A stretch of DNA of 43,305 nt from a virus: positions 1 through 43,305 of IMG/VR virus record IMGVR_UViG_3300035698_012288; one strand, 5' to 3'. Positions 33,921 through 34,970 of the stretch are shown one piece after another. Made by a program: the position numbers and the translations under genes. The notes below the pieces were generated by a model. The model saw nothing but the letters and a program-made list of their open reading frames with translations. It was not told where the DNA came from and made no database searches. Numbering within the stretch: the first letter of the stretch is position 1; every line of letters begins with the position of its first letter.

Positions 33921-33964
33921 TTCCCCTCATCCCCCTTACTGATCTTGTGCTTGGTTTTAGTCAT
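33921..33964 (-). repeat. Leader repeat copy 1
   Basis: First of three near-identical 41-44-nt direct repeats. On the minus strand it starts ATGACTAAAACCAAGCACAA and would encode MTKTKHKISKGDEGK, running 19 codons to a stop just inside the C5 methyltransferase gene and supplying that gene's ribosome site. It differs from copy 2 at one base. Confidence 0.85.
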
Positions 33965-34089
33965 TTGTTCGCTTTAAAAAATGCTTCTGCAAATCCTTTA
34001 GGTGTTATTGCCCGGCGCTCTTGTCTTGTTAGTTTACCAAACATCTCAGGTGCTATTTGGTGCGATTTCAATCTGTCAAATTTAACCAT
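33961..34089 (-). CDS. Hypothetical protein, 42 aa
   Basis: Small basic protein MVKFDRLKSHQIAPEMFGKL, then TRQERRAITPKGFAEAFFKA. Its stop overlaps the ATG of leader repeat copy 1. No Shine-Dalgarno site is clear. Unrecognised; a real gene is plausible because the frame fills the gap between the two methyltransferases. Confidence 0.45.
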   Translation of the reverse strand: MVKFDRLKSHQIAPEMFGKLTRQERRAITPKGFAEAFFKANK

Positions 34090-34132
34090 GCTATCTGATT
34101 CTCTAGCTAAACTTGGAAGTTTTTGGGATTAG

Positions 34133-34705
34133 TCATAATTCTATATCATTTTCTACTTCATTACCCCAAACATCCCAACCTTTGGTTTTTTGACGAGCAA
34201 ATAGTTCTATTCTTGGGGCATCAGTAACACCAGTAATCATGTCTCTAAAAAAATCAGGTTTTTTACTATGATAATTATGGGGCCTCTTAACTAAAAACCA
34301 TGTCGTTAATATTCTTTTCGATTTTGGCTTTTTACCCTTACGACTAAGAATAAGAAATTCATTAGTTGGTGTGTATGCGCCTCCTAATCCAGCCCTTGGT
34401 CTTTTACACCAAATTAATGTTTGTTTGTATTCAAAACCCCATGCACTAATTACCTGGAACGATTTTTCTAAATATTTCTGAGTTGTCCATAAATATAGTT
34501 CACAATTATTATCGGCAAATTTTTCTATTGGCAAAGAACATATTTCCCCAATAGACATTGTTGGAAAAGGCAATGGCTTAGCTTTACTATTTGGCCTATT
34601 ACGATTTGCATTCCATTTCCCGTATTTCCAGGGTGGATCAGCATAAATTGTTCGATACTTCTTCCCCTCATCCCCCTTACTGATCTTGTGTTTGGTTTTA
34701 GTCAT
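34133..34705 (-). CDS. MT-A70-family adenine methyltransferase, 190 aa
   Basis: N6-adenine methyltransferase. Catalytic DPPW is at residues 23-26 in YRTIYADPPWKYGKWN; downstream GEICSLPIEKFADNNCELYL, WTTQKYLEKSFQVISAWGFE and LIWCKRPRAGLGGAYT are typical MT-A70 segments, and the C terminus has APRIELFARQKTKGWDVWGN. ATG at 34705 follows AAAGGA; a much longer frame upstream would run through the HTH gene. The first 15 residues come from leader repeat copy 2. Likely protects phage DNA or marks a regulatory site. Confidence 0.9.
   Translation of the reverse strand: MTKTKHKISKGDEGKKYRTIYADPPWKYGKWNANRNRPNSKAKPLPFPTMSIGEICSLPIEKFADNNCELYLWTTQKYLEKSFQVISAWGFEYKQTLIWCKRPRAGLGGAYTPTNEFLILSRKGKKPKSKRILTTWFLVKRPHNYHSKKPDFFRDMITGVTDAPRIELFARQKTKGWDVWGNEVENDIEL
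34662..34705 (-). repeat. Leader repeat copy 2
   Basis: 44-nt direct repeat identical to copy 1 except one base; here in frame with the MT-A70 gene and forming its N terminus. Confidence 0.85.
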
Positions 34706-34970
34706 GGACAATTCCTTTCCCGTTGCACTTTGGGCAAATCTTGTATGTTGACCTATTAAGTTTTTTAAGAGCCAAATAGATGACCTTGTGTGGGGCTTCT
34801 CTTTGCCCACTCTCCCATAAACTGACCGCAGTAGCAGTTCTACCAAATCTTTTCCCAAACTCCGTCTGTGATTCGTTTAGCTTCTTCCTAGTCATTTTAA
34901 TAAAGTATGGAAAATTAGATAAAAGGTCCTTCCCATCCCCCTTACTGATCTTGTGTTTGGGTTTAGTCAT
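34698..34970 (-). CDS. HTH (XRE-type) regulator with C-terminal zinc knuckle, 90 aa
   Basis: Residues 27-70 (RKKLNESQTEFGKRFGRTAT, AVSLWESGQREAPHKVIYLA) are a Cro/CI-like helix-turn-helix. The C terminus has CPKCNGKG, the DnaJ-like zinc motif seen in small phage regulators. The first 13 residues derive from leader repeat copy 3. The stop overlaps the start of the MT-A70 gene, so both are coupled; it may control methyltransferase expression. Confidence 0.8.
   Translation of the reverse strand: MTKPKHKISKGDGKDLLSNFPYFIKMTRKKLNESQTEFGKRFGRTATAVSLWESGQREAPHKVIYLALKKLNRSTYKICPKCNGKGIVHD
34930..34970 (-). repeat. Leader repeat copy 3
   Basis: 41-nt copy with a 3-nt in-frame deletion relative to copies 1 and 2, forming MTKPKHKISKGDG at the N terminus of the HTH protein. 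Confidence 0.8.

Follow-up and report, generated by a model that had tools for sequence, protein, structure and literature searches.

Genes of the methyltransferase block

The window analysed here is the whole of one virus record, IMGVR_UViG_3300035698_012288, a stretch of 43,305 bases that encodes a large terminase and a P22-type portal. Its two ends, 1-127 and 43179-43305, are identical over 127 nt, which likely reflects circular assembly with a k-mer overlap and not a terminal repeat of packaged DNA. No integrase was found among the window proteins scanned with Pfam. The window also encodes, on the minus strand at 38627-39478, an SPFH/Band 7 domain protein, here carried in a phage genome.

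The methyltransferase block sits within a leftward gene cluster, and all of its features lie on the minus strand. Read in that direction, a small Cys-rich gene (34972-35142) is followed by a gene for an HTH regulator of 90 aa (34698-34970), by one for an MT-A70 family adenine methyltransferase of 190 aa (34133-34705), by a 19-codon ORF, MTKTKHKISKGDEGKNEIY* (33905-33964), and by the gene for a C5 cytosine DNA methyltransferase of the dcm superfamily (32965-33918). The HTH regulator shows HTH homology only from about residue 24 and carries a C-terminal CPKCNGKG. The idea that the Cys-rich gene and the HTH gene are the two parts of a split MqsA-type protein was rejected, since joining them brought no real gain in score (30.1 versus 29.5 bits).

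A 47-nt leader repeated at three starts

Three of these reading frames open with the same sequence, a leader whose full unit measures 47 nt and reads, in the form of copy 2, ATGACTAAAACCAAACACAAGATCAGTAAGGGGGATGAGGGGAAGAA. Copy 1 (34924-34970) opens the HTH gene, copy 2 (34659-34705) opens the MT-A70 gene, where it replaces the gene's own start codon, and copy 3 (33918-33964) opens the 19-codon ORF, which overlaps the start of the C5 gene. The original prediction of three such copies was borne out by sequence comparison, as was the in-frame 3-nt deletion that it placed at the start of the HTH gene. The copies begin at 34970, 34705 and 33964 on the minus strand; copy 1 further differs by a change of ACC to CCC and by a diverged tail. 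Copies 2 and 3 differ at a single one of their 47 bases, a synonymous exchange of AAA and AAG, so that the identity first given as 43/44 becomes 46/47 across the full unit. This identity of 98% supports the view that the duplication is recent.

Every copy stands at the start of a gene or ORF, and the likeness among them begins exactly at the A of the ATG, while the sequences 5′ of the ATG are unrelated. The rest of the window has nothing within 14 mismatches of the leader's 45-nt core, and, with the 127-nt overlap of the contig ends set aside, no repeat family in the 43 kb is longer.

The leader supplies starts to genes whose homologues lack it

The HTH protein begins MTKPKHKISKGDGK and the MT-A70 protein begins MTKTKHKISKGDEGKKYRTIYADPPW. 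As read from the DNA, both genes take their start codon and their first 14-15 codons from the leader, and the C5 gene takes its ribosome site from it, perhaps with translational coupling through the 19-codon ORF. This ORF ends just inside the C5 gene, as had been predicted, 14 nt past its start, and the leader supplies the GAGGGG before the C5 start. The best placement of this start is at 33918 (MKFIDLFAGIGGF), with the GAGGGG a few nucleotides upstream; an alternative start at 33930 (MRGRMKF) is possible. No clear Shine-Dalgarno sequence was seen upstream of copy 1.

Homologues of the MT-A70 protein were taken from 47 IMG/VR loci. Their alignment with it sets in only behind the leader, and most of them have their own start at that point, with M-KYxTIxxDPPW. 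Likewise, C5 homologues start with MKFIDLF (MKFIDLFAGIGGF), which in the window corresponds to the ATG that closely follows the GAGGGGAAGA of the leader, at 33918. Homologues of all three proteins thus start without the leader, and we conclude that it was added to these genes. In a structure of the MT-A70 protein predicted from a 30-sequence alignment (pTM 0.79), pLDDT stays under 50 for residues 1-11, and residues 17-22 make up the first strand. It is conceivable that copy 2 truncated the HTH gene, whose C-terminus lies beyond the reach of the homologues found.

Stop and start in one sequence

The first 8 nt of the leader, ATGACTAA, hold a TGA in frame +1 and a TAA in frame +2 relative to the start codon, and these stops are in use. 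In copy 2, ATGACTAA contains the TAA of the HTH gene; in copy 3, the ATGA contains the stop of the preceding ORF. Upstream of copy 1, the TAA of the Cys-rich gene lies 1 nt before the leader.

Six instances of ATGACTAA occur genome-wide, and all five on the minus strand fall inside the present 2-kb block, at gene junctions, as compared to at most two per 2.1 kb across 300 dinucleotide shuffles; this clustering is only suggestive, because two of the five sites lie outside the leader and the shuffles omit coding bias, such as ATGA overlaps and MTK or MTN starts. One of the two additional sites (32961-32968) joins the stop of the C5 gene to the start of the next gene (32510-32968) and matches the leader only over the latter's first ~10 nt. 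The other (34129-34136) lies at the stop of the MT-A70 gene, where ATGACTAATCCCAAAAAC resembles the leader's first 18 nt. It was considered as a fourth copy and rejected, as it consists in part of TN codons belonging to the methyltransferase remnant described below, and its presence at this junction may be a coincidence, ATGA overlaps and MTK or MTN starts being common.

A displaced methyltransferase between copies 2 and 3

Directly behind the MT-A70 gene, at 33961-34136, lies the C-terminal relic of a phage cytosine methyltransferase of the phrog_757 type. Its open frame spans 42 codons (33961-34089), and more conserved residues can be read out of frame up to the MT-A70 stop codon, among them the conserved stretch TNSQKLPSLAR. 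The profile match covers only positions 184/194-219 of the 247 in phrog_757 (PHROG 757), that is, the last 26-36 positions, and the relic matches the exact C-terminus of annotated methyltransferases from Mycobacterium phage Send513 and Escherichia phage PDP46. Of the 22 relatives that a scan of IMG/VR returned, those that no contig end truncates measure about 195-270 residues and carry PPC and ENP motifs, and the relic is 57-76% identical to only the last ~43 residues of such methyltransferases, in ten phages. The catalytic part of the enzyme is missing, and the MT-A70 gene occupies its place.

We regard this arrangement as direct evidence that a methyltransferase was replaced in the segment between copies 2 and 3, as the original idea of a modular joint had led one to expect; the leader may have had a part in that replacement. 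The junction with the relic could have arisen by illegitimate recombination.

The leader in other genomes

The leader was searched for with degenerate patterns in IMG/VR, in GTDB genomes, and by blastn in INPHARED phages and PLSDB plasmids, and no copy was found in any of these collections, from which records very close to the window may have been missing; the originally proposed look for the leader before other genes of relatives, or for exchanged segments, yielded no case. Two pattern matches in IMG/VR (L061 and L062) were discarded as leaders, being single, untranslated ribosome-site matches that we judged to be due to chance. The three nearest phages by portal (G001-G003; 55-64%), two of which are fragments, gave no match to the MT-A70 or C5 protein, and the repeats inside them proved unrelated to the leader. 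The largest of these relatives, G003, contains very long repeats with a 12-nt period (L056 and L057), which would be rich in Ser and Pro if in frame.

Parallel joints in other phage contigs

Repeats of a similar kind were encountered in other phage contigs. Contig 3300037461_000317 carries TTAAATAACTTACCAAAGA(GA)GAATATG, a sequence unrelated to the leader of the window, before consecutive genes around a C5 gene (L065 2671-5218 and L139 3819-6368); five of the copies are good and a sixth is degraded, and several include the stop codon of the gene before. A second contig that has little else in common with it, 3300025087_000619, repeats this joint at no fewer than three gene starts (L138 13800-14508). 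The genes behind them have no detectable homologue in 3300037461_000317, whereas one other gene on the contig has one. At a further locus (L025 609 and 1568), a 28-nt repeat stands at the starts of an MT-A70 gene and of another gene, and the genes preceding the two copies terminate within them, in different frames (TAA and TGA); the other loci of this kind are likewise two-copy cases.

Two related observations concern MT-A70 genes elsewhere. Near one such gene, two ORFs share a 52-nt exact repeat from the ATG, MVEMGGDIGTIAGMNSS (L020 2572 and 3641). At five loci (L009, L010, L011, L012 and L007), the ~40 nt before the MT-A70 start, gttaggtgtagtatgaacggattaaaagaacgaaatatg, are conserved while the sequence farther upstream is largely unrelated, and it is possible that this stretch and the MT-A70 gene form a moving leader-gene unit.

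A survey of 116 sequences, nearly all of them loci picked for their methyltransferases, gave 74 exact repeat pairs of 20-80 nt when both strands are counted, or 37 distinct ones. In 11 of the 74, both copies were anchored to an ATG start at equal offset, as against 0.4% for random positions. The corresponding figure in 337 kb of other phage DNA was 0 of 20 pairs. A start-anchored repeat at L109 was rejected as a free leader, as two paralogous genes share it as their conserved end. Given this paralogy and the bias of the sample towards methyltransferases, we claim that parallel joints exist and make no claim as to their frequency.

What the repeat may do

The reading that we prefer, with a probability of roughly 60%, is that the repeat is a duplicated stop/start joint which would provide translation initiation and mark sites of gene exchange. 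Placed at three junctions of one operon-like block, the 47-nt leader would, from its ATGACTAA onwards, close the upstream gene and open the downstream one. Its copies would have arisen as recombination at or beside the leader brought in or exchanged accessory genes, most of them methyltransferases, and they would have been kept because incoming genes that had lost their start region could be translated from it, either by direct fusion, as for the HTH and MT-A70 genes, or, as for the C5 gene, through coupling to the 19-codon ORF that overlaps its start. As direct repeats, the copies could also let single genes drop out by homologous recombination.

The proposal that the repeat serves as a modular joint for swapping methyltransferase genes draws indirect support from the relic between copies 2 and 3, from the absence of the leader in homologues and from the unrelated joints in other contigs. 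Gene exchange is possible without any special joint, and recombination at the joint is the part that we infer. The stop/start joint is the most economical account of the mechanism.

It could be argued that the copies are neutral scars, short duplications left by illegitimate recombination when genes were inserted, with no function beyond an accidental start codon. That there are only three copies, that no relatives carry the leader and that a frame-shifted methyltransferase relic next door marks the region as one that holds debris would all fit such an origin. However, all copies begin exactly at the ATG and hold the frame, the indel of copy 1 being a multiple of three, and for each of them there is an intact gene that has no other evident start or ribosome site, so that we hold a mere scar to be unlikely. 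A metagenomic contig also invites the suspicion of an assembly artefact, and the 127-nt overlap of the ends is indeed typical of k-mer circularisation. Yet the 47-nt repeat is far shorter than this overlap, substitutions and an indel set its copies apart, and the reading frames are coherent at every junction; the chance that the repeat was created by the assembly is accordingly minute.

Both of the alternatives that assign the leader a specific molecular role are less likely than the stop/start joint. The leader might be a cis-regulatory site, on the DNA as an operator or on the mRNA, to which a phage protein such as the HTH regulator binds and through which expression of the HTH, MT-A70 and C5 genes would be coordinated. 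RegA-type control of translation at start codons in T4 offers a precedent, and it would suit this arrangement that the repeat is oriented and placed alike at all three genes and that the first gene codes for an HTH protein. But the leader is not palindromic, it has no stable RNA fold (weaker than that of shuffled sequences, z +1.1 to +2.5), no Rfam match was obtained, and no sigma-70-like promoter lies at the copies. These results also lend no support to the shared regulatory RNA that had been suggested, and make a regulatory site of either kind improbable; a tRNA search returned nothing. The encoded peptide, MTKTKHKISKGDEGK, might instead be what matters, as a basic nucleic-acid-binding tail or as a tag for stability or localisation. 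It is basic and in frame in two proteins, and the only difference between copies 2 and 3 is synonymous. On the other hand, the peptide of copy 3 is a separate one of 19 codons that is not fused to the C5 protein, the leader is predicted to be disordered in the MT-A70 protein, homologues do without it, and the identity at the DNA level exceeds what a constraint on the peptide would need. A functional peptide is, in our estimate, improbable.

The stop/start joint might also be one instance of something broader. Different phage lineages would have stop/start joints of their own (ATGACTAA...GAGGGGAAGA here, TTAAATAACTTACCAAAGAGAATATG elsewhere), copied together with accessory genes and above all with those for DNA methyltransferases, and would so possess a cassette system that needs no integrase. 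We put this forward tentatively and consider it rather doubtful. If it were true, any gene behind a joint would be translated, and homologous recombination between joints would cleanly remove or swap single genes. Phages change their methyltransferases to escape restriction, and mosaic evolution in general faces the problem of how an arriving gene comes to be expressed at once. The displaced methyltransferase that is still visible between two copies of a repeated joint offers a concrete and testable picture of how genes may arrive in a mosaic genome.

Comparison with known systems

Several known systems share features with the leader. The SAS/ESAS of cluster K mycobacteriophages is an untranslated sequence of 13 nt, GGGATAGGAGCCC, that is present in 11-19 copies per genome and lies 3-7 nt before the ATG (PMC3203893). 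Like the leader, these repeats share one orientation and the position of a ribosome site; they precede many non-structural genes, which belong to different families, and the upstream stop codon sometimes falls inside the repeat (PMC3203893). The leader, in contrast, measures 47 nt, exists in three copies, begins at the ATG, is translated and has a different sequence. If the parallel joints hold up, start-associated repeats would be more widespread than the case of the cluster K mycobacteriophages suggests.

In Brujita and Island3, a boundary sequence of ~50 bp is found in relatives both with and without an inserted gene (PMC3029335). Here, too, a short direct repeat at a gene border flanks a putatively inserted gene and is long enough for general recombination, but the leader stands at gene starts and not at gene ends, and it is known from one genome. 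The promoter-early stem-loops (PeSLs) of T4-type phages combine an early promoter with a stem-loop and are repeated regulatory cassettes proposed to mediate the shuffling of accessory genes (cited in PMC4503421); the leader contains neither a promoter nor a stem-loop.

ORF-11 of the class 1 integron site attI1 is a short ORF whose translation is coupled to that of an incoming gene without an initiation region of its own (PMC8876359), and the 19-codon ORF overlaps the start of the C5 gene in a comparable manner. Unlike ORF-11, the leader is copied with each gene and is not fixed at one platform, and no integrase or attC is known here. By their defining features, the leader is not an SAS and is probably no member of the ORF-11/attI1 and Brujita/Island3 types. 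By analogy, its nearest functional precedent would be ORF-11, through coupling, its nearest anatomical one the SAS of cluster K, and its nearest evolutionary one the boundary sequence of Brujita and Island3.
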